A model generated the notes under the pieces. That model was not told the DNA's origin. It worked only from the letters and a program-made list of their open reading frames with translations, and searched no databases. Shown here in pieces: positions 1,448 through 41,390 of a stretch of DNA of 64,000 nucleotides (position 1 is the stretch's first letter; each line of letters opens with the position of its first letter). Where the stretch lies: assembly GCA_019054805.1 (NCBI GenBank), contig JAHQIY010000014.1, positions 1 through 64,000 on the forward strand. Reading direction: 5' to 3'. The stretch is from Brachionus manjavacas. Its lineage: Eukaryota > Rotifera > Eurotatoria > Ploima > Brachionidae. The translations under genes were made by a program, and so were the position numbers.

Positions 1448-1839
1448 TCTTTTTATTTTTGCGACCCATTTTTTTCGAAATTTATAAATGAAATTCTATG
1501 AAGCACACAAATTGCTTTTCAAATTGTTTTTTCTTTATTTAATTTGAAAAAAACCCAATTTTTAACTTAAAATATTTCAGCAAAATAATTAATAAAAATT
1601 TCTAAAAATTAATTTTAGTTGCTAGGAAAAAATCGATAAAAAAAAATTAAGTTGACGAATTTTTAAATAATGATTGTATTTGCTTTACCATACAATTCCA
1701 TTAATAACCATTCCATAATTTTGGTTATTTGAAATAGTTTTTATAAGTAAAAATAATATTATATAATATATATTAGAAAAACCAATTTAAAAGGCTGAAT
1801 TTTTCCTAAGAGAAAGTTTCATTTTAAATTTTCTTCAAA
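1448..1839. promoter_or_regulatory. AT-rich upstream region of the glycoprotein-like gene
   Basis: No gene is seen in these 392 bases. A run of alternating A and T around 1757-1774, about 70 bases before the ATG at 1840, could serve as a TATA-like core promoter for the downstream gene. This is inferred from position and composition only. Confidence 0.3.
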
Positions 1840-3773
1840 ATGGTTAGACTTTATTTTACCCAAGCTTTGATTTTAATGGCAATAATTGTTGTAAAAAACA
1901 AAAGTCAACTTTATGAACAAATCTTGGGCGATTTCAAAATGTGTATCGTTAACAACCATTTGAATATGCTAAATTTAGAGAATGATTGTTTTATGGAGTC
2001 TTTTAGTAAATCTGTGCATGAGTTTTCAATAAAAGCTTTGAAAGGTAAAGAAGAGCAGAATTCAGGTGGGTTAGAAGGTGACATTCATTCCATAGGTTCA
2101 CATGGATACGTTTTTTCCAAGCATAATTTTATTTTAGAGACAAAAGGAATCGAATGTAGAATGTTAGTGCGAAAATATAAATTTAGTAGAGATATTTTCT
2201 TCAATAAATATGTTCAAAATGATTTAGAAAAAATTTATTTATCTAAACATGATTGTGTTCAAATGTTTAAGGAAAAACAGTGTGGCTTTTCGAATAAAAA
2301 ATTCAATATGCTATGTACTAACAATAACACTTGCTCGTTTTCACAAGATGTTGTCGAAAAATATCCATTTTATTTTGGAACAATTGAAAAAACTTTTTAC
2401 GAATGTCATTTCAATGAAAAGATTGTATTCGCTCAAAATAAAAATCAAAATATTTTTCACAACTCAATTGAACCATGCTATGCCGAAGATGAATTTTGTA
2501 AAATGCCTCAAAGTACAATAATATGGGATAGAAAGGATATTCACAATTGTCAATATGAAAGATTATTACATTTTGATGATATGATTAAAATGGATAAAGT
2601 GAATAATGGGATTAAAAGATTAGTTCTTTATTCGTCAAAAGTAAATTATCTTTTTATGGTGACTGGTTATGTTAAAGATTGTGGATTTGATTTTTGGAAA
2701 ACATCAGAGGGACTCTACCTTTCTTTCTACCCTGGGGTTTTCCACCAGGCGCATGATGGGATGTATCAAATCTTACACGCTAATAGCCAAGTCATTAAGG
2801 ATAAGCTTGAAAACCTTCCCACATCAAAGTACTCATTAAGTCATTTTACAGAGAAAGACAAAAATAGGCTTTTAGTTTCTGAACAAGACTATAAAACATT
2901 TGTTATGTTGGAAATGATTAAACAATTGCATTGTAGCATTTTTATCAATTCAATTAAACAAAATCTTCATCTAGAAGATACGTTCTTGAATCTAACGCAT
3001 ATAGGTAATAAATATTAAATTACTTTTTATTTAATAATTTGAATTTTTTATTTTGTTTTAAAAGATAATAAAAATTTCCTTTTTTACATAAACAATGGCC
3101 AAGTATTTATACCACTTTGTTCGAAAATCGACAAAATTCGAATCAAAAATAAAGTTAATTCAAAAGAATGCACCAAACATTTGCCAATTGAATATCGTAT
3201 TCAAAATTCAAAAAACTTCAGACCAGGTTACATACGGCCAAATAACATAATAACCCAATATTCAAAAAAACTGTCGAATGTGATCAATCAATAATGTTAA
3301 GAATGTCAAATAAAAAAGCAGTTCTAGTGGAAAGATTGTCACAGAATACTATTCGCATTTCAAATTTAACTCACCATTCTACTGATTTTAAATTGAAAAC
3401 AGGCGATTTAAAAAATTTATACGATCATCACGCGTACTTGTTGAACGGAACGGACTTTATTGAGAACATACATATTTTGGAAGATGAATCGTTATTTTTT
3501 AATTCGCCATTTATTGTAATGGACTCGCCAAAAGAGCTTTCAAAATTGGACGTAAATGGAAATTTGATCGAAACCAATTCAATGGGAAAAATTGTGCAAT
3601 GGTTTGCAAACAAAATTGGAAATATTAATGATCTGATAAGAAATTTTTTTTCAACAATTTTAATATTTTTTGGAATTTTATTTCTTGTAACTATTACCAT
3701 TTATTTGATTTACTTTTATTTTAGCAAAGTAAAATATGGCAATTATTCAAAAGGCAATGTTGAATATGCCTAA
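1840..3773 (+). CDS. Envelope-glycoprotein-like secreted/membrane protein, two exons, one frame break
   Basis: The ATG at 1840 opens a hydrophobic signal-peptide-like N-terminus, followed by a cysteine-rich ectodomain that includes a W-D...C-x-Y-E motif near 2525-2565. Exon 1 ends at 3004. A 60-bp GT..AG intron (3005-3064) restores the frame into exon 2, which starts with another Cys-containing block. The reading then shifts by one base within an A run near 3262-3272 and continues to 3773. The end carries a strong transmembrane segment (about 3645-3722) and a short basic tail. The layout (signal, Cys-rich ectodomain, C-terminal anchor, short tail) is that of the Env-like glycoproteins of invertebrate retroelements, and its Cys pattern resembles the env fragment at 35739-36262. 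It lies 144 bp upstream of the USP-Helitron gene on the same strand, so it may belong to that element. Family assignment is by pattern only. Confidence 0.6.
3005..3064 (+). other. Intron in glycoprotein-like gene
   Basis: It starts GTAATAAAT and ends TTAAAAG, 60 bp. Removing it joins the two exons in frame (phase 1) and skips the stop codon at 3016-3018. Confidence 0.75.
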
Positions 3774-3917
3774 TATTAAACCTTAGCCCTTGAATATGTC
3801 TTTTTTCTTTTAGTTTTGTTTTAATTTTTTATATTTTAATTTTTAAATAAATTTTTTTCATTTTAGATATTTAGAAATCAAAAAAATCCTATTGAAAAAT
3901 TATTTTAACCAACGAAA

Positions 3918-5465
3918 ATGAGCAGACAATTAACAAGAAGCAAAATTAATTCGATCAATCAATTGTTTAGAAACAATTTACTATTGACAAACTTTGACTA
4001 CGATCGAAATTCTTCCTTTGTTGGCAAAGGAATTCCAAATTTAATTAACACTTGTTTTGTCGGTTCAATAGTTCAATGCATTAATTCATTCGACATGGTA
4101 TTAAAAATGTTATTGAACACAAATACCAACATCAATTTGCCTATGATCAAGACGAGTACAATTTGGTTGATACATATGTTAATTTTGTGTACGAAGGTTT
4201 GAATTTAACAAAAAGACTGAAACAAAAAGAATTTAAAAATTTGTATCAAAATTTTTTCGATCAATTGTACGAGTCGAAATTAAGTGAGACTTTTACACAA
4301 TTTAATCAGCACGATGCTCATGAATTTCTCATACAATTCATGGGTTACATAGATGAATGTGTAATTGAGATTGAGATTGGAAAACGAGGACTTAGATCAA
4401 CCGATCGTTTAGAAGATGTCTTTGAAAATTTCAAGTTTACTCATAATCTAATGAGTCAAAGCTTTATATTCGAAACAATGCAGAAAATGAAATGTGGCAA
4501 AAATTCAATGCATCAAAAACAAATCACTTCTACAAATCTTTGCTTACAATTGCCAATGGATTCGAATTGTAAATCAATAAACGATTGTTTGGAAATATTT
4601 ATTCGTGATGAATTGATTGAGGATACGTTTTGCAATCAGTGCAATTCAAATCAAACCTTTACTTCAAGTTCAAAATTAAATGCAATGAAGGACAATTTGA
4701 TTATAATGCTCAAAAGATTTAGAGTAATTTAATTTTATACAAATTTTTTTCCAAATTTTTATCAAATTTCTATTTAAAAAAAAAAAGATAGATAATTTTG
4801 GGACTGTTAGAAAATTGTCAAATTCTATTGATTTTCAAGAAGAATTAAACTTGAGCAAATATAAAGTTTCAAATTTAAATGACAGAATTTATGAGCTAAC
4901 ATCAATTTGTTTTCATCTTGGAGACGCATCAAACTCGGGACATTATACTTGTAAGTAAGCTTTTAACAATATCAGTAAAAGAAAATATTCCAATTAAAAC
5001 AATTTAAAAAAATAACTCCTGTTTAATTAGATCAAGCCTAAAATAAACCATAGTTTGGCTAAGCGAGAGACGTCGCCAGACGTCTTGAGCTTTGACAAAT
5101 TAGGGTTTATTTTTAGGCTTGATTTTATTTTAACAAAATTGAAGTCTTAATGGGGTCTGGGGCGAAGCCCCGGTTTAGGGATTTCGGCTTAATAGAAGTA
5201 TAGGGTTAGCTTATTAATTTTAATTCATATTTTTTTGTAATTAGTCAAATTAAATAAAATTCTTTTAATTGGATCTTTTATTTTGACCTATTTTTAATTT
5301 AAATATTTTAAAAACTTAATTAATTATTATTTTTCAAAGCATTGGTTCGTTCAAAATCTAATAATTGGCATTATTTTGACGACGAAAATATTAAAGTTTT
5401 TCCGAGCCTAAATCAATTTAAACAAACAATTGATATGAGTACAAATCAATGTTACCTTTTATTTT
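3918..5465 (+). CDS. USP-type (C19) deubiquitinase domain, N-terminal module of a Helitron fusion
   Basis: The domain follows the order of ubiquitin-specific proteases: a Cys box with NTCF, catalytic Cys codon at 4053-4055 (residue 46); a QHDAHEFL box near 4310-4330; a CNQC half zinc ribbon near 4630; the LKRF motif before intron 1; a His box (FHLGDASNSGHYT, His at 4941-4943); then, after intron 2, WHYFDD and CYLLFYKL, the usual end of the fold. Introns at 4724-4787 and 4951-5339 splice in frame. One frame change occurs between about 4060 and 4150. The first CxxC of the zinc ribbon looks lost (KCGKN). No stop separates this domain from the basic arm of Helitron copy A, so the simplest reading is one fusion protein. 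USPs remove ubiquitin from proteins; the target here is unknown. Confidence 0.85.
4724..4787 (+). other. USP intron 1
   Basis: GTAATTT...AAAAAG, 64 bp, phase 0. It follows the LKRF motif and removes the TAA at 4730-4732. Confidence 0.8.
5031..5123. repeat. 93-bp inverted-repeat (MITE-like) insert
   Basis: Arms atcaagcctaaaataaacc (5031-5049) and its complement (5104-5123, one extra T) enclose a loop that contains a second short palindrome around agacgtc. It lies wholly inside USP intron 2. Confidence 0.7.
5152..5181. repeat. GC-rich segment matching the 257-bp satellite core
   Basis: The complement of this stretch matches the ccctaaacca plus GC-rich core junction of the tandem repeat at 1-1447, with a few substitutions. 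It also forms a small hairpin, ggggc-gaa-gcccc. Confidence 0.6.
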
Positions 5466-7240
5466 ACAAATTGAATAGAAGATCCCAAAATCAAATTCGA
5501 CGTGTCAATGTTGTAAGGCCGGTTATTCCGGATAATTCAGCTAGTGCGCAAGCAAATAGAAAACAAAGACATGATTCTCATATGAGTTTTCAATCATTAG
5601 AGGATGAAAAAATGTCATTTTCTATCCAAAAAACAAGTGTTGAAATGAAAATCATAGAATCTGATAGGGAGTTTGGATTGCAAGAAATTAGTCAAACTCC
5701 AGAAAATATATCACAGCATGATAAACGAAAAGAATACAAGAGAGAATGGATGAGAAAGAAAAGAGAAGATGAAAATTATAGAAATGTCGAAAAATCAATA
5801 CAAAAAATAAGTAAACAAGTTAAACGTGAAGATTTGTACGAAAAACAATACGAACAATTAAAAAACACTTTTCTTAAAAAAATAAAAGAATTAACGATGT
5901 CGAATATAGGATCAATGAACAAATCAGAAATAGTCAAGAGCATAGATTACGAAGACAAGATCAAGCATATAGAAATTTTGAGAAATCAAGAAACACTCAA
6001 GAACATCAAATGAGAAGAACAGATCCACAATACAGAGAAGAAGAACAGCTAAGAAACACTGAAGAACATCAACTAAGAAGACTCGATCCACAATACAGAG
6101 AAGAAGAACAGCTAAGAAACACTGAAGAACATCAACTAAGAAGACTCGATCCACAATACAGAGAAGAAGAACAGCTAAGAAACACTGAAGAACATCAACT
6201 AAGAAGACTCGATCCACAATACAGAGAAGAAGAACAGCTAAGAAACACTGAAGAACATCAATTAAGAAGAAGTAATTCCATATATCGAAACGATGAACAA
6301 ATAACAAACACAATCGAGCATGCATTAAGAAGAATAAATATTGAATACAGAATGCAAGAACAATTGTCAAATACCGAACAACACAGAAATAGAAGATCAA
6401 ATGAAACTTTTAGGATTGAAGAACAAGCTAGAAATTCAATTAGTAAACGAAATCAAAGATCAAATATTAAATTTTTGATAGATGTTTATGAAGAAGGAAT
6501 TCAAAATGGTCCGTCGTTTGCTTGTGTTTGTTGTGGTGGTCTTTTTTAAGAGAACAGTAAATAAGTTCACACTTAGTAGAAATAACAGTTTGTTCAATCA
6601 AATATTTAATGTAGATATAAAATCGGAATGTGGTTTTAATTGGATTTGTGTTACTTGTTCTAAATATGTGAGAGAAAACAAAATACCAAATCTCGCATTG
6701 TCAAATGGATTACAATTCCCAGTTGTTCCAGACGAATTAAAACATTTAAATGAAGTTGAAGAACGCTTGTGTTCGCCAAGACTTCCATTTATGCGTATCA
6801 AAGAATTGGTTAATTGGGATCATCAACAAAAAATATCTGGTAATGTAGTAAATGTACCAATTGATACAGAAAAAACATTGGAAATTCTTCCGCGTTCATT
6901 TGAACAATCCGAAACAATTCAGTTGGTATTAAAAAGGAGAATGGACTATACAAAACCTTATATGTTCGATTCAATACGACCATATTTAATTTTAAAAGCA
7001 ATTAGATATTTGCTTAATAGGCCCCTTTTCAAAGAGAATAACATAAAATTATCAACGGAATGGTTCGAGAAACATAAAGATTTTGACAATGTGGATTTGA
7101 CTGAAGATTTCATTGTAAATAATGAAGATAGATTATTGGCTTCGGGTAATTTAAAAAGACTTTATCCAAATTTACAAGGGTTAGAAAAAGAAATGAAGAC
7201 GCTGATTATGTTGAACAATTTCAAAATGCACAACCTACTC
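5466..7240 (+). CDS. Helitron A N-terminal arm and DUF6570-like domain
   Basis: This continues the USP reading frame into a highly charged arm made of repeats of about 21 residues with an LRR-D-P-Q-Y-R-EEEQ-RN pattern, like the basic N-terminal repeats seen in many Helitron proteins. It is followed by CVCCGGLFF...W-I-C-V-T-C-S-K, a Cys-rich zinc-binding start, then the KIPNLALSNGL / PDELKHLNEVEERLCSPR block and an LPR...IQLVLKRR region typical of the DUF6570-like module of Helitrons. The frame changes by one base near 5880-5890 (A run), 6541-6547 (T run) and 7185-7195 (A run). It lies directly upstream of the Rep domain. Function of the module is unknown in general; DNA binding is plausible. 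Confidence 0.8.
6013..6264 (+). repeat. 63-bp coding minisatellite, four copies
   Basis: Units at 6013, 6076, 6139 and 6202 are nearly identical and encode a 21-residue repeat (LRRLDPQYREEEQLRNTEEHQ minus one residue). More diverged units flank both sides, so the array is a recent homogenisation of an older protein repeat. Confidence 0.95.
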
Positions 7241-9236
7241 TTTTGTTTGACAACAACGATTTGGTAAAGACAATAGCGCCAGGCGAAGGTATTCAGCCAA
7301 GATCAATTCTTTCAGATAAAGATGCTGAAGAGTTGACATTTATTAAAATATATGGTGGTGAAAAGTTTCAACCAAAATTACAAATCAAATACGGAATGAG
7401 ATGCAAGTCGGAATTTCGTCGATTTGACAGACGTTGTGCCAATGACATAAATAAATTGTTTTATTCGTACAAGAAATTGGTGAGCAAAAAACTAAATGCA
7501 GCCATAGACACATGCTTGAGAAAAACCCAAGAAATTGAATCGCTGACCGCACGTGATGCTCTAAATAAACAAAAAATAAATGATTTAATAGTTCGAAATG
7601 AAGCACAAATGTTTTTGCGTACAATAAGATCAAGTCCACAGTATTGGGAGTGGAAAAAAATGGAAATAAATGCAATGATTCGTCAATTGGGCTGTCCGTC
7701 GTTTTTTATTACATTGAGTCCGGCAGAAATAGATTGGAATGAATTGATTCAAGTATTGTCGAAAACGCTCGACAATAAATATCTTTCAGATGATGAATTG
7801 ACTAACATAACAAGAGACAAGCGTATTGAAATGGTAAGTCGTGATCCAATCACTGTGGCAAGATATTTTGAAAATAGAATGGGCGAATTGCTCAAATACA
7901 TTTTCAATTTGAATGGACCCTTTAAAGAAAATCCTGTGTTTGATTACTTTTGGCGTGTGGAATTTCAAAATCGTGGAAGTCCTCACATTCATATGATAAC
8001 ATGGAATATAGATGCTCTAAAATATGATGAAGATTTGCAAGACAAAAGTGAATTGGTCAAAAATTGTGCCGAATTTATTGATAAATACATAACGTCAAAG
8101 TGTCCAGCAAACAATATGATTGAGGAAGACGATTATGAGAATCGTAGTTGTATTTTGCAAGAGGTACCTTTGAAGTATCAAGTTCATGTGCACAAAAGTA
8201 ACTGTAAAATTACCGATGATCATGGTAACATTTTGTGCAAGTATGGATTTCCATGGCCCATTCTGGACAAAACAACAATATTAGAGCCTTTGAAAAAAGA
8301 TGATAACGATTTTCACAAGGCTTACGAAAATTTTCTAATGATAAGAGAGAAATTGAATGAAATAAATACAAAATTCAAAAGTAACTCATCATATTCAATT
8401 AATTTTGAACAATTTTTAGAAATGATAGGATTAAATGAAATTGATTATTTGAGGGCACTTTCACGTTCTATTAAAAGATCTACAGTCTTTTTAAAAGATC
8501 ATCTAATGACATAATGGTTAATCCATACAATAAACCCATTTATGTTCGTCACAGAGCAAATATGGACATTCAATTTATTACTGATCCGTATGGTGCTGCA
8601 GCTTATGTGTCAGCGTACATGCTCAAATCAAATGCTTCAATGTCACGACTACTTAAAAATACTGTTGAGGAAGTGGTGCGTGGAAATTTGAGTGTTAAAC
8701 AACGTTTGTTAAAGGTAGCCAACAAGTTTAACAATTGTTGTGAAATATCAGCTCAAGAGTGTACATATACATTGTTGAGTATGCCAGTGTCGCGAACATC
8801 TCGTGAAACCATTTACGTAAATACATTTCCTTCCAAAGAAAGAAATGTTATACTTAAGGAGGATCGCTATTTGGAAATAATGAATCCTGAATCCAAAAAC
8901 ATATTTCGAGCTGGCATACTTCAGCATTATGTTAATAGACCTATTGAAATGGAAAGAATGTGTTTGGCCGAATTTGCCACTTACTTTGACTATTTTTCAA
9001 GAGAAAGAGCAAAAGATCCAAACGATTTGACTCGAGTTGGACGATTTCAAGAAGAAGAAGACGAAAATTTGGACGAAGATGACAACAATTATTATTTTGA
9101 AAATAAACAATTGGCAAGAGTTGAAACGAACACTGGTGAAGACGATGATGTTTCTGACACTGTTGAAATAGCAAGTAATTCAAAATTGATTAAATTGAAA
9201 AATAACGATGGATATGTAAAAAAGAAACAAGTGTAA
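7241..9236 (+). CDS. Helitron A Rep (HUH, Y2) domain
   Basis: This is the Rep endonuclease of rolling-circle transposons, which nicks and joins single DNA strands. VEFQNRGSPHIHMITW near 7960-8005 carries the HUH metal-binding pair, and AAYVSAYMLK near 8597-8630 carries the two catalytic tyrosines with Y-x3-Y spacing. The SFFITLSPAEIDW segment is typical of the Helitron N-terminal region. An acidic tail runs to a TAA at 9234-9236. A one-base deletion in an A run near 8493-8497, compared with copy C, breaks the frame; the rest matches copy C almost base for base. The following helicase is in the +1 frame in both copies. Confidence 0.9.
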
Positions 9237-9239
9237 AAT

Positions 9240-11997
9240 ATTGCGTTACAAAAGATATAATCGAATAAAAGATCCGGAAAATTACTATCGTGTTGAAATA
9301 ATGTTGTTTCACCCGTGGAGAAATGAAAAAAAGAAGTTGAAGTAAAAGATACATTTGAAATATTTGAGCTCAACAAGACAATTATAGGTAATAATCGTGC
9401 ACGCTTTGAATCTGTTGTGGCAGAAGAGTTTGATAAAGCTATAAATGATTTGGAAACAGAAATACAAGAGCATTATGAACGTATGGTCGAAGATTATGTG
9501 GAACGAGTGAATGAAGCAAATGAAAACCTTGTGACGAATGCAAATGAAGCGAGAAATGAAGAAATTGAAGATGAATTTGGATATCATGCTGTTATTCAAG
9601 ATGAAATTAGTAATTTGCAAAGTATGATTAATGCCGATTGTGATTCGATAATTTTGCCAAAGCGAACAACAAATGATGAATATGCAACATTGATGAAGTC
9701 TCTTAATCGTATTCAACACAAGTATTTGTCAAATTTTATCGATTGTGTACGATCAACAGAGCCATTTTATCATTTTGTTAGTGGTGGTGCGGGCACTGGT
9801 AAGTCTCATCTAATCAAGTCGTTATATCAAACGTTTATAAGAATAAATAGTGACAATATCGATGATCCAACTTCTATTACTGTTCTCTTGTCAGCATTTA
9901 CTGGCAAAGCAGCTTTTAACATTAAAGGATCAACTTTGCACTCATTGTTCCATTTTCCAATTCATACAAACAATATGGACAGATTGTCAGAAAATTTATT
10001 GACAAAAGTGCGAAAGCTATTTAAAAAAGTAAAATTATTAATAATTGATGAAATATCGATGGTCGGAAGCAATTTATTTTCGAAATTAAATAAGCGTTTA
10101 ATGCAAATAATGGACAATTCAAAGCCATTTGGCAATATATCTATTGTTGTTGTTGGTGATTTAAATCAAATATGTCCAGTGCAAGACAGTTGGATATTTG
10201 AAAGATCTAGAGGAGAGAGTGGCTATTCGATTTTGGCAGGTGATTTGTTGTGGCACAAGTTTGAATTTGTTGAACTCAAGGAAATAATGAGACAACGTGA
10301 CGATGCAGTGTTTGCTGAAGCTCTTAATACACTTGGAAACAAAGGTGTTATAGGTTTGAGTGAAGAACAAGTGAGAATGTTTAATTCACGCATTGTTCTC
10401 ATTGATCAAATACCAAGAGAAGCTATTTGTGTTATTCATTCAAATAAAGGAGTGAATGAATACAACGATTACAAGTTGAGATCAATGCCTGGTGATTTAA
10501 TTGAAAATCGAGCAATTGATTTGGCTCAAGGCAAAGAGAAAAATTCAAATAAAGCAAAAAACCTAGTGGCAAGTCTTAGAAATGAAATGGACATGAATAA
10601 AACATGTGGAATGCCTACATTGTTGAGATTTAAAGTCAACTGCAAATACATGATGACAACAAATGTGCGAACAGAAGATGGTCTAGTGAATGGTGCAGTT
10701 GGGTGTTTGAAACATATTGTTTTTACAAAGAAAAAACAGACGTAAAGCCATTGGTTAAACGAGTGTACTTGGAATTTGCAGATAAAGATGTTGGTCATTT
10801 GTCACGAAATGAAAACGATCAACTTAAATGGATGAGAGATGATGCATTGATTCTAAAAGAAACAATAGATCCACATTTGACTGCGTTGGTTTACGAACAA
10901 CAGACAATTAAAAGACCAAAAGCGGGTGGCAATTATCGCGTGGATAGGAGACAATTTACTTTGATTGAATGTGAATCAATGACCATACACAAATCACAGG
11001 GACAATCGTATACATGTGTTGCTGTGTTCATTGGAGACAGTTTGAAACGATCGTTGTTGTATGTAGCATTGAGTAGAGCAACTAAGCTGACTGGTTTGTA
11101 TTTGTATGGCAGTCTTTCGATTGAGAGTGCACGTGTTCAACGATTGTCCAAAGAACAACGAGAAAAAGAATTGCAATTGTTTGAACAAAATGATCCGGTT
11201 CGCATTGAAATGAATAGACTAAGATCGAATGCTAACATGAGAAACCATTACTCTTTTTGGACTATGGTTTTGAGTTGAAGAGAACAAGTGATTTGACAAT
11301 AATGTTTCAAAATATTCAATCGTTTAATTCAAACAAAGAAAATGTCAAATATGATTATGGATATAAGCAAGCTGATGTTATTTTTCTAAGTGAATGTCAC
11401 AATAGAAAAAATTTTAGACAAAATGAAGCAAAATTATTATTTGACAATTATCACCTTGTTTATTATTCAAGTGGAATCAATTTAAATTGTTCAAATGGAC
11501 AAATATGTTTAATACGCAAGGAAAAATCACTTGTTGACAATTTTGAATTAGTTGCACACAATGCATCCACAGGGTTTGAGTATTCGGGCATTAATCAATC
11601 GAAATGTGTTGAATTGAGTTTATTCAAATTTAAAAAGGGAAATTCAACAGTTGTTTATTTTTTAAATCTTTACAAGCATCCAAAGATGGACAATGACAAG
11701 TTTATTCAAGAGTTGATTGCCTTTTTGAATTTAAATTTGCACAGCCAAGACTCTTTGGTAATCTTTGGTGATTTCAATATTGACTTTAATAGAGAAAACA
11801 ATTCTAAATATCTTGATACGCTAAGAGACAATTTGAACATGACACCCGTGTTTAGCAAATGTTTAACTTTCAAGGATATTTCTCAATTGGATTGGTGTCT
11901 AACGAGCAAGTCACATTCTTTTGGTCAATTTAAATCACAGCCATATTCAACATGGTTCAGTGATCATCAGGCTATTTTCACCGAGATCACATTTTAA
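9240..11997 (+). CDS. Helitron A PIF1-like helicase plus EEP endonuclease
   Basis: The region opens with LRYKRYNRIKDP, the usual link from Rep to helicase. The helicase has Walker A GGAGTGKSHLI (about 9784-9816), Walker B LLIIDEISMVG (about 10040-10070), VVVGDLNQICPVQD, and the C-terminal TIHKSQGQSY and YVALSRATKL motifs of the PIF1/RecD group. Fused behind it is an endonuclease/exonuclease/phosphatase domain (IMFQNIQS, FLSECH, FGDFNIDFN, WFSDHQAIF), the hallmark of Helentron-type Helitrons. Frame breaks near 9330, 10732 and 11256 lie in homopolymers; the last two are absent in copy C. The stop is at 11995-11997. Confidence 0.9.
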
Positions 11998-12293
11998 TTC
12001 TCTTTTTTTTTCTTATTTAGTTCAACTTTTGTTGTCAATAAATTTTTTATTACTTTAATCTTTTTGATTAATATTTTTGTTTTAGTGATTGATCGATTTA
12101 AAGTTTAATTTTTAAAAAATTAGATTGCCTAGATTTTTCGCGCCTTTTATGTATTCAATGCTATCGATCGACATATTTTTTGTCATTTTTAAAACTAGGG
12201 TTAACATCTAAAAACTAGGGTTAAATGTGTCCACAGACGGACGGACGGACGGACGGACGGACGGACGGACGGACGGACACGACAAACGTAATA
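11998..12293 (+). other. Helitron A 3' non-coding region
   Basis: AT-rich, no gene. It carries two ctagggttaa motifs (12195-12204 and 12215-12224), each containing just over one telomere repeat unit in the opposite orientation to the flanking CCCTAA array. About eleven GGAC units follow at 12236-12278. Copy C shares the layout. Confidence 0.7.
12236..12278. repeat. (GGAC)n microsatellite at Helitron A 3' end
   Basis: Uninterrupted 4-bp repeat. The same repeat is shorter in copies B (15845-15863) and C (20580-20601) at the same distance from the terminal hairpin. Confidence 0.97.
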
Positions 12294-12341
12294 CCTAGAT
12301 TTTTTTTTTCTTGATATTCATATATCAGCGAAAAATCTAGG
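12294..12341 (+). terminator. Helitron A 3' terminal hairpin
   Basis: cctagattttt pairs with aaaaatctagg, and an inner gatat/atatc stem lies in the loop. The element then ends in CTAGGCAACCC at the telomeric repeats. A 3' hairpin is the usual rolling-circle transposon end signal; the same structure closes copies B and C. Confidence 0.8.
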
Positions 12342-12342
12342 C

Positions 12343-12366
12343 AACCCTAACCCTAACCCTAACCCC
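12343..12366. repeat. Telomeric CCCTAA repeats between copies A and B
   Basis: About four CCCTAA units, the last imperfect, lie between the 3' end of copy A and the truncated start of copy B. Confidence 0.95.
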
Positions 12367-15186
12367 AAAATAATTCGTTACAAACGATACAATCGAATAA
12401 AAGATCCGCACAATTATTATCGCGTTGAGCTGATGTTGTTTTTAGCGTGGCGAAATGAAAAGCGTGAAATCGAAATACGTGATCCGTTCGAAAAATTTGA
12501 GTTAAACAAATGTGAAATTGCCAAAAATCATGCTCTTTTTGAGTCGGTTGTGGCCGAAAAATTTGATCGTGCTCAAAATGAAATAGAAACGGCCATTCAA
12601 GAACACTATGAACGTTTGGTCGAAGATTATGTGGACAGAGTAAATGAGGCAAACGAAAATTTGATTACAAATGTAAACGAAGCACAAAATGAAGAGTTCG
12701 AAGCCGAATTTGGCTATCATGCTATAATACAAGATGAATTGAGCACAATTCAAAGTATGTTAAACACAAATACAGGTGACATGATCACGTTGCCAAAACG
12801 TAAATCGAACGAAGCATACACAAGTCTAATGAAATCGCTCAATCGAATTCAACACAAATATTTGGTCAATTTTATTGATTGTGTACGAGCGAACAAAGCT
12901 TTTTATCATTTTGTAAGTGGTGGCGCTGGCACTGGCAAATCACATTTGATCAATTCGTTGTATCAAACATTTATAAGAGTTTGCGATTTGAATCGTGATG
13001 ATCCAAATGCAAAAACAGCATTGTTGACAGCATTTACTGGCAAAGCTGCATTCAATATAAAAGGAACAACGCTTCATTCAATGTTTCATTTGCCAATACA
13101 TTCGAATAAATTGGATCGTTTGTCGGATAAACTTTTAGCTCGTGTTCGACATTCAATTGGCAATGTAAAACTAATTATCATTGACGAAATATCAATGGTT
13201 GGCGCAAATCTATTTGACAAAATAAACAAACGATTACAACAAATAATGGACAATAATCAACCGTTTGGCAATGTTTCATTGGTTGTCGTAGATTTTTAAA
13301 TCAAATAAGGCCTTGTGCAAGATAGTTGGATATTTGAAACAAAGTCAAAACGACAAGACAATGGCTATTCAATTTTGGCTGGTGAAATGCTATGGCAAAT
13401 GTTTAAATTTATTGAGCTTAAAGAAATAATGAGACAACGTGACGATGCAGTGTTTGCTGAAGCTCTAAATGTCTTGGGAAACAAAGGTGTTAATGGTTTG
13501 TGTGAAGATCAAGTAAAAATGTTTAATTCACGTATTGTTAACATTGATCAAATATCTAACGAGGCTATTTGTGTCATACATTCGAACAAAGGCGTAAATG
13601 AATAAAACGAATACAAATTGAAATCAATGCCTGGCAATTTAATTGAAAATAGAGCTGTTGATTTGGCGCGTGGCAAAGATAAACAATCGAATGAAGCCAA
13701 AAATCTTGTTGCTAGTGTACGCAATGAAGTTGATTTGAATAAAACGTGAGGCATGCCGACTTTGCTTCGATTAAAACAAAATTGTAAGTATATGATTACG
13801 ACAAATTTGCGTACGGAAGATGGTTTGGTCAACGGTGCATTTGGTTGTTTGAAACATGTGATATTTACAAAGAAAAAAACTGACGAAAAAACATTGGTAA
13901 AACGTTTGTATTTGGAATTTGCTGATAAAGATGTTGGTCATTTGTCACGTAATGAAAATGAAAAACAAAAATGGATAAGAGACGATTCGCTAATATTAAA
14001 GCAATCAATAAGTCCACAATAGACTGCTCTTGTCTGTGAACAACAAACTATAAAAAGACCAAAATCAGGCGGCAATTATCACGTTGAACGAAAACAATTT
14101 ACACTTGTTGAATGTGAATCAATGACAATACACAAATCACAAGGACAGTCGTACGAGTGTGTTGCCGTTTGTATTGGTGATTCGTTGAAACGATCATTGT
14201 TGTATGTGGCATTGAGTCGTGCAACAAAATTAAATGGTTTGTACTTGTACGGAAGTTTGTCAATTGAGAGTGCACGTATACAACGATTGTCCAAGCGACA
14301 ACGCCAACAAGAATTGGAATACTTTGAACAAAATGATCCAGTTCGCATTGAAATGAGTCGTTTGCGCAGCCAAGCTCAATTGAAAAATAACTACTCTTTT
14401 CTAGACTTCACATTTGAAAAGAAAAGAACATGTGACTTGACAATTGTATTTCAAAATATTCAATCGTACAATACGAACAAAGAAAATTTAAAATCAGACT
14501 TTGGCTACAAACAAGCTGACATTATACTTTTGAGTGAATGTCACAATACAAGAGCAAATCGTTTGCATGCAACTCGATTGTTTGAATCAAATAATCAATA
14601 CGATTGTGTGTACTATTCGTATGCAACTGATTTAAATGCGTCAAATGGTCAAATATGTTATGTTCGAAAAGAGTTGAGCCGTTCTTGTTTCAGATTGTTA
14701 GCTCACAATGCATCATTACAATACGATTACACTGGTATGACACAAAATAAATGCGTTGAATTGAGTCTATTTGAATTTGTTTGTCGTAAACAAGACTTGA
14801 ACGTCAAAAAAATCTATTTGCTTAACTTGTACAAACATCCCAAGTACGAAAACGAAATGTTTCTAGTCGATTTAGACAAATTCATTTCAAAATATTACAC
14901 AAATAGCACTAATTGTTCACTAATTGTAATGGGCGATTTTAACATTGATTTCAATCAAGCGTCAAACAAAAAGTATTTGCACTTTTTTAAACAACAATTC
15001 AATTTGGAACCGTATTTTGACAAGTGCAAAACACACAAAAACATATCACAATTGGACTGGTGTTTCTACAATAAACACAATCATATTTTTGCCACCGCCG
15101 CCAATCCAAGTGCCGGCTTTCACTCACAGCCTTACACGACTTGGTTCAGCGATCATTCGGCAATATTTAGTGAAATTACTTTTTAG
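12367..15186 (+). pseudogene. Helitron B helicase plus EEP, inactivated
   Basis: All PIF1-like motifs are recognisable (GGAGTGKSHLI, IIDEISMVG, TIHKSQGQSY, YVALSRATKL), as are EEP motifs (VFQNIQS, LLSECH, MGDFNIDFN, WFSDHSAIF). Unlike copy A, B has real substitutions giving stops, for example near 13297, 13603, 13747 and 14020, so it is a genuine pseudogene. The protein differs from copies A and C at many positions. The start is the telomere junction, so no Rep remains. The last frame (14122-15186) is open from the helicase C-terminal motifs through the whole EEP domain. Confidence 0.9.
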
Positions 15187-15879
15187 AAAATTGATCAATT
15201 AACCTACTTTTATTTTTTAGTGATTATATGTTTGTGTTTTTTTTTTTAATTTGATTTCTATTTTAATTTAATTCAATAATTTAATTCAGTTGTTTTCAAT
15301 TTGATTGACAACAAAAAAAATAAAATTTATTATTTATGCTAAACCCTTTTTATCTACTCTTTGGGGTACTTGATCAATTAATTCATTTCATTTATACTTT
15401 TAAAATTTTTTTTGCCAATTATATTAATATCTTGATTGATATTTGATCTAGAAAAGCACATACAAAACTTTGTGAACATTGTTTTTGCTCACTATCACAC
15501 TCAATTAAACTAGAACTAAACACGAGTTTAAATTTTAAAAAAATTTATTTTGCCTAGATTTTACTTACACAGATATTTTTGACTTTTAGTTTTTTTTCAT
15601 TGTTTTTTTCTCTCTTAACCCATTTTTTTTTGTGACAAATTCAATTTTTTAATTAATTCGATTTGAGATTGAATGATTTGTTTGGACGTCAATTGACGTT
15701 TTTGAACGTAAATATGCCAATATTTGAAAAGGGAAAGGTGTATCAGTTTGAAATTTGAAGAGCACTCTACTTATCATTAAAAGATTTTGGTCACAAATTT
15801 TCAGCTCTTTAGCTTGTTTCATTCGTCCATTTTGGCCTGTCAACGGACGGACGGACGGACGGACACGACAAACGTAATA
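15187..15879 (+). other. Helitron B 3' non-coding region
   Basis: AT-rich, with no gene recognised. It includes GGAC repeats at 15845-15863, followed by the cacgacaaacgtaatacctag segment shared with copies A and C. Confidence 0.7.
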
Positions 15880-15913
15880 CCTAGATTTTTTTTACTAGCA
15901 TAGTAAAATCTAG
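15880..15913 (+). terminator. Helitron B 3' terminal hairpin
   Basis: cctagatttt pairs with aaaatctagg. The stem is kept while the loop differs from copies A and C, which supports selection on the structure. Confidence 0.8.
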
Positions 15914-15914
15914 G

Positions 15915-15921
15915 CAACCCT

Positions 15922-15955
<34 letters not shown>

Positions 15956-16013
15956 AACCCTAACCCTAACCTAAACCCAAACCTAACCCTAAAACCCTAA
16001 CCCTAACCCTAAC
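15915..16013. repeat. Degenerate telomeric repeats between copies B and C
   Basis: About 97 bases of CCCTAA with variant units (CCCTAAA, CCTAAA). The array joins copy C at ..ccctaac|gcaatgattcg without filler. Confidence 0.97.
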
Positions 16014-16016
16014 GCA

Positions 16017-17579
16017 ATGATTCGTCAATTGGGCTGTCCGTCGTTTTTTATTACATTGAGTCCGGCAGAAATAGATTGGAATGAATTGATTCAAGTATTG
16101 TCGAAAACGCTCGACAATAAATATCTTTCAGATGATGAATTGACTAACATAACAAGAGACAAGCGTATTGAAATGGTAAGTCGTGATCCAATCACTGTGG
16201 CAAGATATTTTGAAAATAGAATGGGCGAATTGCTAAAATACATTTTCAATTTGAATGGACCCTTTAAAGAAAATCCTGTGTTTGATTACTTTTGGCGTGT
16301 GGAATTTCAAAATCGTGGAAGTCCTCACATTCATATGATAACATGGAATATAGATGCTCTAAAATATGATGAAGATTTGCAAGACAAAAGTGAATTGGTC
16401 AAAAATTGTGCCGAATTTATTGATAAATACATAACGTCAAAGCGTCCAGCAAACAATATGATTGAGGAAGACGATTATGAGAATCGTAGTTGTATTTTGC
16501 AAGAGGTACCTTTGAAGTATCAAGTTCATGTGCACAAAAGTAACTGTAAAATTACCGATGATCATGGTAACATTTTGTGCAAGTATGGATTTCCATGGCC
16601 CATTCTGGACAAAACAACAATATTAGAGCCTTTGAAAAAAGATGATAACGATTTTCACAAGGCTTACGAAAATTTTCTAATGATAAGAGAGAAATTGAAT
16701 GAAATAAATACAAAATTCAAAAGTAACTCATCATATTCAATTAATTTTGAACAATTTTTAGAAATGATAGGATTAAATGAAATTGATTATTTGAGGGCAC
16801 TTTCACGTTCTATTAAAAGATCTACAGTCTTTTTAAAAAGATCATCTAATGACATAATGGTTAATCCATACAATAAACCCATTTATGTTCGTCACAGAGC
16901 CAATATGGACATTCAATTTATTACTGATCCGTATGGTGCTGCAGCTTATGTGTCAGCGTACATGCTCAAATCAAATGCTTCAATGTCACGACTACTTAAA
17001 AATACTGTTGAGGAAGTGGTGCGTGGAAATTTGAGTGTTAAACAACGTTTGTTAAAGGTAGCCAACAAGTTTAACAATTGTTGTGAAATATCAGCTCAAG
17101 AGTGTACATATACATTGTTGAGTATGCCAGTGTCGCGAACATCTCGTGAAACCATTTACGTAAATACATTTCCTTCCAAAGAAAGAAATGTTATACTTAA
17201 GGAGGATCGCTATTTGGAAATAATGAATCCTGAATCCAAAAACATATTTCGAGCTGGCATACTTCAGCATTATGTTAATAGACCTATTGAAATGGAAAGA
17301 ATGTGTTTGGCCGAATTTGCCACTTACTTTGACTATTTTTCAAGAGAAAGAGCAAAAGATCCAAACGATTTGACTCGAGTTGGACGATTTCAAGAAGAAG
17401 AAGACGAAAATTTGGACGAAGATGACAACAATTATTATTTTGAAAATAAACAATTGGCAAGAGTTGAAACGAACACTGGTGAAGACGATGATGTTTCTGA
17501 CACTGTTGAAATAGCAAGTAATTCAAAATTGATTAAATTGAAAAATAACGATGGATATGTAAAAAAGAAACAAGTGTAA
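16017..17579 (+). CDS. Helitron C Rep domain, 5'-truncated
   Basis: A continuous frame of 520 codons starts at the telomere junction; the ATG at 16017 is simply an internal methionine of the longer protein. His104 and His106 form the HUH motif, and Tyr311 and Tyr315 are the paired catalytic tyrosines in AAYVSAYMLK. Unlike copy A it has no break near the KRSSND segment. It ends in an acidic stretch and TAA. Without the N-terminal arm it is unlikely to be a full transposase, though the catalytic core is whole. Confidence 0.9.
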   Translation: MIRQLGCPSFFITLSPAEIDWNELIQVLSKTLDNKYLSDDELTNITRDKRIEMVSRDPITVARYFENRMGELLKYIFNLNGPFKENPVFDYFWRVEFQNRGSPHIHMITWNIDALKYDEDLQDKSELVKNCAEFIDKYITSKRPANNMIEEDDYENRSCILQEVPLKYQVHVHKSNCKITDDHGNILCKYGFPWPILDKTTILEPLKKDDNDFHKAYENFLMIREKLNEINTKFKSNSSYSINFEQFLEMIGLNEIDYLRALSRSIKRSTVFLKRSSNDIMVNPYNKPIYVRHRANMDIQFITDPYGAAAYVSAYMLKSNASMSRLLKNTVEEVVRGNLSVKQRLLKVANKFNNCCEISAQECTYTLLSMPVSRTSRETIYVNTFPSKERNVILKEDRYLEIMNPESKNIFRAGILQHYVNRPIEMERMCLAEFATYFDYFSRERAKDPNDLTRVGRFQEEEDENLDEDDNNYYFENKQLARVETNTGEDDDVSDTVEIASNSKLIKLKNNDGYVKKKQV

Positions 17580-17580
17580 A

Positions 17581-20342
17581 ATATTGCGTTACAAAAGATA
17601 TAATCGAATAAAAGATCCGAAAAATTACTACCGTGTTGAAATTATGTTGTTTCATCCGTGGAGAAATGAGAAAAAAGTAGTAAAAGTAAAAGATACATTT
17701 GAAATATTTGAGCTCAACAAGACAATTATAGCTAATAATCGTGCACGCTTTGAATCTGTTGTGGCAGAAGAGTTTGATAAAGCTATAAATGATTTGGAAA
17801 CAGAAATACAAGAGCATTATGAACGTATGGTCGAAGATTATGTGGAACGAGTGAATGAAGCAATTAAAACCTTGTGACGAATGCAAATGAAGCGAGAAAT
17901 GAAGAAATTGAAGATGAATTTGGATATCATGCTGTTATTCAAGATGAAATTAGTAATTTGCAAAGTATGATTAATGCCGATTGTGATTCGATAATTTTGC
18001 CAAAGCGAACAACAAATGATGAATATGCAACATTGATGAAGTCTCTTAATCGTATTCAACACAAGTATTTGTCAAATTTTATCGATTGTGTACGATCAAC
18101 AGAGCCATTTTATCATTTTGTTAGTGGTGGTGCGGGCACTGGTAAGTCTCATCTAATCAAGTCGTTATATCAAACGTTTATAAGAATAAATAGTGACAAT
18201 ATCGATGATCCAACTTCTATTACTGTTCTCTTGTCAGCATTTACTGGCAAAGCAGCTTTTAACATTAAAGGATCAACTTTGCACTCATTGTTCCATTTTC
18301 CAATTCATACAAACAATATGGACAGATTGTCAGAAAATTTATTGACAAAAGTGCGAAAGCTATTTAAAAAAGTAAAATTATTAATAATTGATGAAATATC
18401 GATGGTCGAAAGCAATTTATTTTCGAAATTAAATAAGCGTTTAATGCAAATAATGGACAATTCAAAGCCATTTGGCAATATATCTATTGTTGTTGTTGGT
18501 GATTTAAATCAAATATGTCCAGTGCAAGACAGTTGGATATTTGAAAGATCTAGAGGAGAGAGTGGCTATTCGATTTTGGCAGGTGATTTGTTGTGGCACA
18601 AGTTTGAATTTGTTGAACTCAAGGAAATAATGAGACAACGTGACGATGCAGTGTTTGCTGAAGCTCTTAATACACTTGGAAACAAAGGTGTTATAGGTTT
18701 GAGTGAAGAACAAGTGAGAATGTTTAATTCACGCATTGTTCTCATTGATCAAATACCAAGAGAAGCTATTTGTGTTATTCATTCAAATAAAGGAGTGAAT
18801 GAATACAACGATTACAAGTTGAGATCAATGCCTGGTGATTTAATTGAAAATCGAGCAATTGATTTGGCTCAAGGCAAAGAGAAAAATTCAAATAAAGCAA
18901 AAAACCTAGTGGCAAGTCTTAGAAATGAAATGGACATGAATAAAACATGTGGAATGCCTACATTGTTGAGATTTAAAGTCAACTGCAAATACATGATGAC
19001 AACAAATGTGCGAACAGAAGATGGTCTAGTGAATGGTGCAGTTGGGTGTTTGAAACATATTGTTTTTACAAAGAAAAAAACAGACGTAAAGCCATTGGTT
19101 AAACGAGTGTACTTGGAATTTGCAGATAAAGATGTTGGTCATTTGTCACGAAATGAAAACGATCAACTTAAATGGATGAGAGATGATGCATTGATTCTAA
19201 AAGAAACAATAGATCCACATTTGACTGCGTTGGTTTACGAACAACAGACAATTAAAAGACCAAAAGCGGGTGGCAATTATCGCGTGGATAGGAGACAATT
19301 TACTTTGATTGAATGTGAATCAATGACCATACACAAATCACAGGGACAATCGTATACATGTGTTGCTGTGTTCATTGGAGACAGTTTGAAACGATCGTTG
19401 TTGTATGTAGCATTGAGTAGAGCAACTAAGCTGACTGGTTTGTATTTGTATGGCAGTCTTTCGATTGAGAGTGCACGTGTTCAACGATTGTCCAAAGAAC
19501 AACGAGAAAAAGAATTGCAATTGTTTGAACAAAATGATCCGGTTCGCATTGAAATGAATAGACTAAGATCGAATGCTAACATGAGAAACCATTACTCTTT
19601 TTTGGACTATGGTTTTGAGTTGAAGAGAACAAGTGATTTGACAATAATGTTTCAAAATATTCAATCGTTTAATTCAAACAAAGAAAATGTCAAATATGAT
19701 TATGGATATAAGCAAGCTGATGTTATTTTTCTAAGTGAATGTCACAATAGAAAAAATTTTAGACAAAATGAAGCAAAATTATTATTTGACAATTATCACC
19801 TTGTTTATTATTCAAGTGGAATCAATTTAAATTGTTCAAATGGACAAATATGTTTAATACGCAAGGAAAAATCACTTGTTGACAATTTTGAATTAGTTGC
19901 ACACAATGCATCCACAGGGTTTGAGTATTCGGGCATTAATCAATCGAAATGTGTTGAATTGAGTTTATTCAAATTTAGAAAGGGAAATTCAACAGTTGTT
20001 TATTTTTTAAATCTTTACAAGCATCCAAAGATGGACAATGACAAGTTTATTCAAGAGTTGATTGCCTTTTTGAATTTAAATTTGCACAGCCAAGACTCTT
20101 TGGTAATCTTTGGTGATTTCAATATTGACTTTAATAGAGAAAACAATTCTAAATATCTTGATACGCTAAGAGACAATTTGAACATGACACCCGTGTTTAG
20201 CAAATGTTTAACTTTCAAGGATATGTCTCAATTGGATTGGTGTCTAACGAGCAAGTCACATTCTTTTGGTCAATTTAAATCACAGCCATATTCAACATGG
20301 TTCAGTGATCATCAGGCTATTTTCACCGAGATCACATTTTAA
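17581..20342 (+). CDS. Helitron C PIF1-like helicase plus EEP endonuclease
   Basis: It starts with the LRYKRYNRIKDP linker in the +1 frame relative to Rep. One base is missing near 17866-17870 compared with copy A, so the frame changes there, then stays open from 17874 to 20342 (822 codons). Helicase motifs are the Walker A GGAGTGKSHLI near 18127-18160, a DEISMV box with Glu in place of the Gly seen in copies A and B (VES, about 18408), VVGDLNQICPVQ, TIHKSQGQSY and YVALSRATKL. The EEP domain (about 19640-20340) has FQNIQS, LSECH, FGDFNIDFN and WFSDHQAIF. The Walker B-adjacent substitution may weaken the ATPase. Confidence 0.9.
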
Positions 20343-20617
20343 TTCTCTTTTTTTCTTTTTTAGTTCATACTTTTGTTGTCAATAAATTTTTTATTACTTT
20401 AATCTTTTTGATTAATATTTTTGTTTTAGTGATTGATCGATTTAAAGTTTAATTTTTAAAAAATTAGATGGCCTAGATTTTTCGCGCCTTTTATGTATTC
20501 AATGCTATCGATCGACATATTTTTTGTCATTTTTAAAACTAGGGTTAACATCTAAAAACTAGGGTTAGATGTGTCCACAGACGGACGGACGGACGGACGG
20601 ACACGACAAACGTAATA
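20343..20617 (+). other. Helitron C 3' non-coding region
   Basis: It matches copy A apart from fewer GGAC units (20580-20601). One of the two TAGGGTTA motifs is kept and the second reads ctagggttaga. Confidence 0.7.
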
Positions 20618-20665
20618 CCTAGATTTTTTTTTTCTTGATATTCATATATCAGCGAAAAATCTAGG
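20618..20665 (+). terminator. Helitron C 3' terminal hairpin
   Basis: Same stem and loop as copy A; the element ends in CTAGGCAACCC at about 20671. Confidence 0.8.
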
Positions 20666-20671
20666 CAACCC

Positions 20672-21360
20672 TTCAGTCTCAAAAAAAATAATAATTTGAT
20701 ATGAAGTTAATATTGCAAGCATGAAACAAAAACTTGTTTTTTTTAATTTTGATTTTGGATTTGTGATATGATGATATTTAAGGTAAAATTTTTAGTTTAA
20801 AAAACTATCTACGCTCTGTTTTTCATTTTTTTAAATATTGAGTATTTGCTAAAATACATCATGTTGAGCGTCAATTTAAATTTAAATTTGGGCGGAGAAG
20901 GTAAAATTTTCGAAAAAGATGAATCTTTGTTTCCCAAATTGAAACACTTGAAGGGTGATAAATTAATTTTATTTTTCTTTAATTTTTATTATTTAATTTA
21001 TTTAATATGGTATTACCAGGTGAATTAGATCAGAGCTAATTCTATTTCTAAAACTCATTCAATTTAAAAAAAACAAAAAATTTTTAACTTCATTTTTTAT
21101 TTTTTTAGTAATGAACATTAGTCATTCTATTCAAAAAATGGTTATTCTATTCAATTTCATCACCTAATCTAAAAGTTGTCAGCTAATTTGAAATTTGATC
21201 ACCTAATTCTATTGTGGTTCACCTTTTCGTGAACAAGAAAATTAGATGAATTTAAAGTTCACTAACCCCAGAACAAAAAATGATCGCCAAATATGTGAAC
21301 TATGGCTCACTAGATTTTTTTTTAATTTTATTTTATCTTATTTAACTTTTTCTTTTTGCA
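20672..21360. repeat. 689-bp segment, left member of an inverted pair
   Basis: The reverse complement recurs at 41390-42078 with only a few differences. It contains no convincing gene; a 60-codon frame at 20846-21028 is kept in both copies but has no recognisable features. Confidence 0.95.
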
Positions 21361-28062: not shown

Positions 28063-28383
28063 GGGGTTGTGAAGTTCATTTCAATTCGATCGTTTCAATT
28101 CAGAAAAAGTTAAATAACTTTTTTACTAAAGGAGATAATTCAGTTCTGTAAAATTCTTAATGGTTAAGCAACTTTGCTTAATCCAAAAATATATGTCTGC
28201 AAAAACTGCTTTTTGCACGATCACCATCATGAAAGCTTAACATAATAAGAGAGGATCGTTCTGTATTGCAATTTGCAAATTTGCTTATAATTAAGCATTT
28301 TAAAGAACTGAATTGTCTCTTTTAGTAAAAAAGTTATTCAAGTTTTTCTGAATTGAAACGATCGAATTGAAACGAACTACCCC
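28063..28383. mobile_element. Palindromic MITE-like element with captured fragment
   Basis: Arms of about 100 bp (28063-28170 and 28281-28383) are inverted copies, including ttcagttct / agaactgaa and the atcgtttcaattcag / ctgaattgaaacgat blocks, ending in GGGGT/ACCCC. The centre (about 28203-28270) is a near-copy of 31550-31612, part of the degenerate minus-strand gene nearby. No target duplication was identified. Confidence 0.75.
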
Positions 28384-28739
28384 TAAATCGTTTGCGATTC
28401 ATAAATGGTTGTCCAGAATTTATCTTTGTTAGTTATGTTTCTTGTATTTTTAATCTTATGTTTAATATTATGTTTATGTAAAATTAATTAAAATAACATT
28501 ATAATTCAAAAAAATAATTATCATTATTTACTGGCCATAGTAAACCATTAACACAATAATAGCAAATTATCCCACTGATTCAATAAGACAACGACAAATT
28601 AAACTTTTAAAAACACATTAAGTTCTTTTATTAAGTTCTTTCTCGCTTCCTACTTTTTAGGCTTTGAGCTAATTAGACCAGCATTACTTCCGTATTACTT
28701 CTTGTTAAACCTTAATATATAAACATATACGATGTGAGT

Positions 28740-41340: not shown

Positions 41341-41390
41341 ACCCTAAACCCTAACCCTAACCCTAACCCTAACCCTAACCCTAACCCTAT
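41341..41390. repeat. Interstitial telomeric repeat
   Basis: Eight CCCTAA units, the first imperfect, ending exactly where the right 689-bp inverted copy starts (ccctat|gcaaaaag). Confidence 0.97.

Follow-up and report, generated by a model that had tools for sequence, protein, structure and literature searches.

Helentron transposons stacked in one orientation behind telomere-type repeats near contig ends of the rotifer Brachionus manjavacas

INTRODUCTION

Helitrons are already known from chromosome ends elsewhere, and the stacking of transposable elements on telomeres is so far best known from retrotransposons. The HeT-A/TART and TRAS/SART non-LTR retrotransposons lie in one orientation, with their 3′ ends inward and their 5′ ends truncated, and the Terminons, telomere-associated Penelope-like retroelements of bdelloid rotifers, were reportedly described by Arkhipova and colleagues in 2017. 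Here, we report on a family of Helentrons in the rotifer Brachionus manjavacas that very probably occupies chromosome ends in the same manner. Three copies of it, which we call A, B, and C, lie at the start of the window that we analyzed, the 64,000 nucleotides at the beginning of contig C14 (C14:1-64000; JAHQIY010000014.1) in a genome of 114 Mb and 61 contigs. The family shares with HeT-A/TART and TRAS/SART the single orientation, the inward 3′ ends, and the 5′ truncation; those elements differ in being RNA templated and in encoding unrelated enzymes.

Terminons are described, in the available text of the source, as head-to-tail chains at chromosome ends in which 5′-truncated copies sit behind short telomeric repeats, and their 3′ end carries a reverse-complement telomere repeat beside a folded motif (PMC6431247). 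The anatomy of the B. manjavacas stacks is alike, but the mobile element in this case is a DNA transposon of the rolling-circle type that has Rep, helicase, and EEP, and its 3′ end has a DNA hairpin and a single AACCC unit.

Flies, to our knowledge, lack telomerase. Drosophila biarmipes has lost the telomere-specialized retroelements (PMC7334843, available text), and its telomeres carry SAR repeats, with Helitrons named as the major component (PMC10088271, available text); B. manjavacas, in contrast, has both TERT and TTAGGG-type repeats. Among nematodes, Helitron-like genes occur on 11 of 12 subtelomeric extensions in Oscheius tipulae, for which the available part of the report describes neither 5′ truncation behind telomere repeats nor a telomere-complementary 3′ tail (PMC8022731). 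Helitrons are also enriched in eliminated DNA, mostly chromosome ends, in two Caenorhabditis species, and five of another 26 show them enriched at chromosome ends, a statistical enrichment for which the accessible text gives no junction structure (PMC13370393). In Crassostrea gigas, the HINEs, which are non-autonomous Helentrons, have subterminal repeats, embedded satellite arrays, a microsatellite of mostly 4-nt units, and a 3′ palindrome; as far as the available text goes, Helentrons and HINEs in that species are dispersed at T-rich sites, unlike those described here (PMC7492417). Among the literature matches listed, which leave most of the subscription literature outside their coverage, there was no published case of telomere-stacked Helitrons in rotifers.

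RESULTS

Three Helentron copies lie head to tail between telomere-type tracts

The original prediction held that three Helitrons lie in one orientation, and A, B, and C are indeed all on the + strand, head to tail, within positions 1-20671 (Table 1). Alignment to the outermost copy, A, likewise bears out that B and C are cut on their 5′ side at different points, each behind a CCCTAA-type tract: B at the homologue of A base 9235 and C at the homologue of approximately A base 7671. Copy C is 99.0% identical to A, and copy B is 76% identical. All three 3′ ends are intact, as predicted, and consist of a hairpin followed by CTAGGCAACCC; the end of C, however, runs into non-telomeric DNA. The Rep and helicase of A are split into several frames. 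The contig begins with a 258-bp satellite that we infer to be the 5′ region of A, and this satellite, together with a piece of approximately 375 bp, also lies 5′ of truncated copies on contigs C11, C18, C27, and C28.

Many distinct 3′ junctions lead through telomere-type repeats into truncated copies

Across the genome, CTAGGCAACCC is found at 205 sites, compared with 4 for the same letters reversed. Besides the earlier loci, we took 60 stretches of 301 bp around the listed 3′ ends; the 68 distinct 60-mers yielded 59 junctions after two were dropped (a chance match and an internal repeat) and seven were merged. At 35 of these 59 junctions, the sequence continues as at least two telomere-type units, compared with 10 of 525 background AACC sites (window positions 21001-64000 plus five contig ends; 3 of 502 when positions 41001-41500, which hold an interstitial telomere tract, are left out). 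The figure of 35 is conservative, as the strict pattern misses the junction of B itself, CCCTTAACCC. Both comparisons, that of sites and that of junctions, lead us to reject a chance origin of the pattern. We also reject the idea that the junctions are a single event copied about the genome, given that near-identical junctions were merged beforehand, although an array junction present in 106 copies counts as one.

What lies beyond the junctions is often another copy. Thirty of the 59 lead into the reference element or a piece of satellite (one of them on a 20-bp match, and with the satellite counted as the presumed 5′ part of the element). All of these do so on the same strand, and 27 reach the match within 90 bp. 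The truncation points entered in this way are varied; examples are positions 1821, 2746, 2776, 2917, 3119, 3243, and 3246 in B and 3051, 3371, 4249, and 4260 in C, with several more in the satellite. The tracts between copies are short, with a median of 12 nt and no more than 33 nt at 57 of 59 junctions under the strict pattern, which undercounts a few long tracts such as the B-C tract of the window and two on C8. At 10 or more junctions, AACCC and at most a few letters abut the inner truncation point directly.

The stacks lie mostly near contig ends with their 5′ sides outward

Contig ends stand in for chromosome ends throughout this work, and "terminal" means near a contig end. The original prediction had proposed recording where the CTAGGCAACCC sites lie relative to contig ends. 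Array junction CTAGGCAACCCATTATTTAAC accounts for 106 of the 205 sites, and at 89 sites the motif is followed by C or T; we used 88 of these 89, dropping C21:376021 (L057), which lacks the hairpin, as do L087 to L090. Contigs longer than 600 kb hold 66 of the 88. Of these 66 non-array sites, 49 are no farther than 120 kb from a contig end, 40 of them with their 5′ side outward. Matches to Rep are distributed similarly: there are 60 in total, of which 42 fall on large contigs and 17 on small ones, with a weak match on C25. Ten different contig ends account for 38 of the 42, each match being no more than 95 kb away, and 30 of the 38 are 5′ outward. The remaining four make up a head-to-head cluster on C1 that resembles fused ends. 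By either count, then, the family does not consist mostly of internal copies with full 5′ ends. Rep matches and 3′ sites include fragments and palindromes and are not independent, so nominal P values for these counts are not reliable.

Position near a contig end proves little by itself, because repeats break assemblies. We therefore give weight to orientation at the very tip. For sites within 121 kb of an end on contigs of at least 600 kb, the outermost 3′ end belongs to a 5′-outward element at 12 of 13 contig ends (sign test, 0.0017), namely those on C4, C5, C6, C8, C11, C14, C16, C17, C18, C27, C28, and C31; the exception, on C19, is inside a palindrome. Broken interior arrays would give both orientations, which argues against such an origin.

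Two contig ends illustrate the stacking. At the right end of C5, four B copies form a chain, with lengths of 640, 315, 322, and at least 5,258 bp. The tip is occupied by the longest, and telomere-type tracts lie inside the three outer copies. At the right end of C18, DNA unmatched to the element is followed by a degenerate TTAGGG tract and then by stacked ends that occupy the remaining 54 kb or so of the contig; sequence was read for the initial 3 kb and the final 2 kb, and between them the stack is known by its motif places. Approximately 0.1 kb from that contig end (C18:1365000-1367207, locus L032, near base 2100), a satellite unit is partly replaced by GGGTTAGGGTTAGGGTTAGGG.

The AACCC tail probably belongs to the element

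To characterize the tail, A-type ends were searched by their hairpin core, CAGCGAAAAATCTAGGC, with no condition on the letters that follow. Genome-wide, 172 of 176 A-type 3′ ends run into AACCC; the other four read AACCTAACCC, AACCTAAACCCC, AACCTTTGTC, and CATCCTAACC, and three of them run into AACC. The B-type core has 11 copies, of which 10 lead to AACCC and one leads to AAACCC. The tail is kept where the DNA that follows is not a telomere array: AACCC is present at L005, L041, L042, and the end of copy C, and AACC is present at L101. Because it also occurs at sites that are not otherwise telomeric, AACCC is best read as the element's own, encoded tail. Judged by its letters, it is one unit of the C-strand telomere repeat, and as such it would be able to pair with a telomere overhang.

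Head-to-head clusters, arrays, and satellites

Some stacks face each other. At C1:1793215-1824317, a minus-strand copy with its 3′ end at 1.7932 Mb faces plus-strand copies at 1.798-1.824 Mb, 5′ to 5′, the layout that would result if two arms had become connected at their telomeres, whether in the genome itself or during assembly. A smaller inverted case lies at C17:1560781-1562435 (1.5608 Mb minus, 1.5624 Mb plus), and its arms differ slightly. With their telomere tracts outward, the head-to-head stacks on C1 and C17 may represent fused chromosome ends or joins made in assembly. At C6:41410-47069, C11:45878-58015, and C19:6264-45443, there are also inverted subterminal regions whose two arms share a flank. 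On C14 itself, a second stack, on the minus strand, lies at C14:90900-99900 (L034); the two stacks enclose 71 kb, and their 5′ ends face away from it, an arrangement like that of a small chromosome joined to the rest of C14.

Elsewhere, the element is multiplied in arrays, with units of approximately 1.3, 1.56, 1.8, and 2.1 kb as judged by spacing. Where read, a unit comprises a 3′ piece (approximately 700 bp), the 375-bp piece, and 258-bp repeats whose number varies. Some of the spread in unit length may stem from 5′ truncation at differing points of the satellite. The 106-fold multiplication of junction CTAGGCAACCCATTATTTAAC needs recombination or rolling-circle amplification. Separately, six plus-strand copies at C30:437423-465961 share one flank and differ in the number of C residues at the junction, which marks a tandem segmental duplication.

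A different satellite, of 337 bp, is found at both ends of C1. It was detected by TRF at the left ends of C1, C2, C5, C9, C13, and C16 and by eye, in 100 bp, at the right ends of C1, C3, C8, and C12. On C5 and C16 this satellite occupies the end opposite the Helentron stacks, so it may be centromeric.

Gene content and the 3′ palindrome fit a Helentron

Copy C encodes a Helitron_like_N Rep with the sequences HIH and YVSAYMLK, which we take to be the HUH and two-tyrosine motifs, and a single 822-amino-acid open reading frame (ORF) in which PIF1 and EEP are fused. The 3′ end is arranged as a (GACG)n microsatellite, a hairpin, and the CAACCC tail. The palindrome of this end folds as DNA with z scores of -4.9 (A), -4.6 (B), and -4.9 (C), and a hairpin with a z score of -6.4 is present in L006, which represents a diverged family at C3:7.6 Mb. 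Exact inverted copies of the 3′ terminus lie inside A (17 bp, approximately 200 bp from the end) and B (16 bp, 365 bp from the end); the corresponding copy in C differs at its tip. Taken together, the predicted gene content of A and C fits Helentrons.

Other features are less clearly those of the group. Helentrons generally have subterminal inverted repeats at both ends, make no target duplication, and often carry OTU protease and RPA ORFs. The available text of a published account gives Helentrons OTU proteases, T strings at their ends, and a preference for insertion at TT (PMC4067079). Here, the element ends read CAACCC, not a T string, and no empty site was found; a search for the element's 5′ terminus found none. 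Seven ORFs from the three copies were scanned; a UCH-type protease was seen and no OTU or RPA domain. Those ORFs, which include only part of A's, also hold no reverse transcriptase domain, and no hammerhead or other Rfam family scored above the cut-off in window positions 1-22000, so that the Penelope-type reverse transcriptase and hammerhead ribozyme of Terminon/Athena elements were found in neither set. The helicase-EEP protein has its closest named relatives in Brachionus calyciflorus (40% identity over 87%).

The genome also has a TERT gene (C6:3325836-3326234, in a frame of 1126 amino acids), with 92% identity to that of Brachionus plicatilis and 65% to that of B. calyciflorus.

TABLE 1 Helentron copies, tracts, and associated features at the start of the window (C14:1-64000)
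Feature	Position	Strand	Remarks
258-bp satellite, ~5.6 copies	1..1446	+	TRF; contig start
Helentron copy A, outermost, 3′ end intact	1447..12347	+
UCH (ubiquitin C-terminal hydrolase) ORF, copy A	4163..4732	+	Pfam UCH, E 2.9e-5
DUF6570 ORF, copy A, upstream of Rep	6482..7267	+	E 8e-19
Rep region, copy A, two frames	7243..9236	+	Matches Rep of C at 7675-8502 and 8487-9233
Inverted copy of the 3′ terminus of A, TTGCCTAGATTTTTCGC, candidate subterminal inverted repeat	12125..12141	+	~200 bp inside the end
3′ hairpin of A, leaving the CAACCC tail	12294..12341	+	DNA fold z -4.9
A-B telomere-type tract, 24 nt	12343..12366	+	First AACCC shared with the end of A
Helentron copy B, 5′ truncated, coding region broken, 3′ end intact	12367..15920	+	Hairpin at ~15880-15914
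B-C tract, degenerate CCCTAA/CCCTAAA, ~97 nt	15916..16012	+	TRF
Helentron copy C, innermost, 5′ truncated, 3′ end intact	16013..20671	+
Open Rep ORF in C, Helitron_like_N, HIH and YVSAYMLK motifs	16017..17579	+	E 2.8e-20
PIF1 helicase-EEP endonuclease fusion in C, 822 amino acids, open	17874..20342	+	PIF1, E 9e-34; Exo_endo_phos, E 7e-7
Non-telomeric DNA directly inside the 3′ end of C, reading TTCAGTCTC	20672..20700	+	No reference match

The rest of the window holds further repeats. An interstitial (ACCCTA)8 at 41341-41389 is oriented like the other tracts, with no adjoining Helentron end. A direct duplication of 7.3 kb (26230-33570 and 42549-49891, 99.6% identical) contains an ORF that weakly matches DUF5906 and Gemini_AL1. 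Finally, a 21-bp repeat with 25.5 copies lies within an ORF at 61464-61999, and a 231-bp tandem repeat lies at 62607-63488.

DISCUSSION

The copies described here are stacked in one orientation, have their 3′ ends inward, and touch telomere repeats, an arrangement expected of telomere-associated transposable elements. We consider it highly probable, at roughly 0.85, that this Helentron family is a telomere-associated, end-stacking element. Much of the original prediction stands on this reading: the link to telomeres, the single orientation, the 5′ truncation behind tracts, and the parallel with retroelements all hold and recur at many loci. The course of events that it proposed, insertion into a telomere followed by loss of the outer part, is less well supported, as AACCC abuts broken inner elements at several junctions with little or no further repeat and also occurs at sites that are not otherwise telomeric. 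The order of decay in the window does not fit it well either.

Several observations weigh against a terminal, end-stacking habit or against the mode of attachment proposed below. At 24 of 59 junctions there is only a single C-run, and direct insertion or end joining would look alike at such junctions. Seventeen of the 66 3′ ends on large contigs are over 120 kb away from any contig end: four on C1, two on C17, six on C30 with one flank, one on C31 just past the limit, and four diverged copies that are truly interior (two on C3 and one each on C6 and C7). Two more unstacked ends lie at C6:1.33 Mb and C16:2.069 Mb. Near contig ends, 9 of the 49 sites are reversed, eight of them in inverted or two-sided stacks (C6, C11, C14, and C19) and one on C28. 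The terminal position itself rests on contig ends, and no long clean telomere array was present at those that we read (22 left ends, one of which starts in N, and 13 right ends, eight of them over only 100 bp); a perfect (CCCTAA)6 occurs at only 6 places in the genome, none of them at a contig end. Within the stacks, the innermost C5 copy has a diverged 3′ end, and on C18 the boundary is blurred by a fragment of Rep situated 3.6 kb farther in than the innermost 3′ end listed. Among the copies of the window, B, in the middle, has a decayed helicase-EEP region, whereas that of the inner copy, C, is open, which argues against a simple order in which inner copies are older, unless B was copied in a broken state or C was renewed.

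How the stacks arise is less certain than where they lie. We lean toward attachment of the elements to a free chromosome end over insertion followed by healing. In such a pathway, a single-stranded element intermediate would pair its AACCC tail with the GGGTT of a telomere overhang or, alternatively, would dock on a broken end that had gained one GGGTT unit. The 3′ end of the chromosome would then prime copying of the element and so lengthen the chromosome, and incomplete copying or later erosion would leave a 5′-truncated end. Telomerase might briefly cap this end before the next element joins, and later recombination could multiply some units into arrays. Priming by the overhang is fitted, not observed, and this too counts against the model. 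More tentatively, the 3′ hairpin and CAACCC may have evolved for telomere docking, with the G-rich overhang priming the copying and telomerase kept; chromosome ends would then be lengthened with DNA in the absence of reverse transcription, convergently with Terminons and HeT-A.

The alternative closest to the original prediction is that Rep inserts into duplex telomere at a fixed register (CCC/TAA, the slash marking the insertion point) and that loss of the outer part, healing by telomerase, and reinsertion do the rest. Many junctions do show the fixed register AACCC/TAACCC, TERT is present, the TT preference of Helentrons (PMC4067079, available text) is close to AACCC/T, and the interior sites L005, L041, and L042 also have T after AACCC. 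Yet this model predicts longer repeats between copies than the short tracts observed, and it leaves the junctions at which AACCC and a few letters meet a truncation point with no duplex telomere to insert into. Nor did we see a copy with an intact 5′ end within telomere repeats, although the 5′ terminus of the element was never identified. On balance, we regard duplex insertion as unlikely.

Still less probable, in our estimate, is ordinary subtelomeric repeat biology, in which a CCCTAA-preferring Helentron is reshuffled by unequal exchange and break repair and assemblies break at the repeats. The mostly regular arrays in which CTAGGCAACCCATTATTTAAC recurs, the palindromic and tandem segmental copies, and the interior diverged copies would all suit it. 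It does not predict the 5′-outward elements at 12 of 13 tips, and the varied truncations here strike the 5′ side, whereas the inner copies of tandem Helitrons elsewhere are described as often 3′ truncated (PMC7492417, available text). That repeat misjoins in the assembly created both the junctions and the inverted arms is very improbable: inverted regions do lie near the contig ends of C4, C11, and C19 and inside C17, and some stretches hold runs of N, but the 59 distinct junctions are spread over many contigs and the arms on C17 differ in sequence. A separate proposal, that the Helentron has been domesticated as the sole telomere mechanism, is not supported in view of the TERT gene and the many contig ends with other satellites.

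The joining of mobile elements to telomeres is known mainly from retroelements, for which a connection with telomerase comes naturally. If a DNA transposon does the same, a free end and a tail complementary to the telomere would be all that this niche requires. Docking on free ends is a testable route by which Helitrons could target chromosome ends, and it could explain their enrichment at the chromosome ends of nematodes and flies. Within the B. manjavacas genome, head-to-head stacks would mark fused chromosome ends, and the subtelomeric 258-bp satellite would be given an origin.

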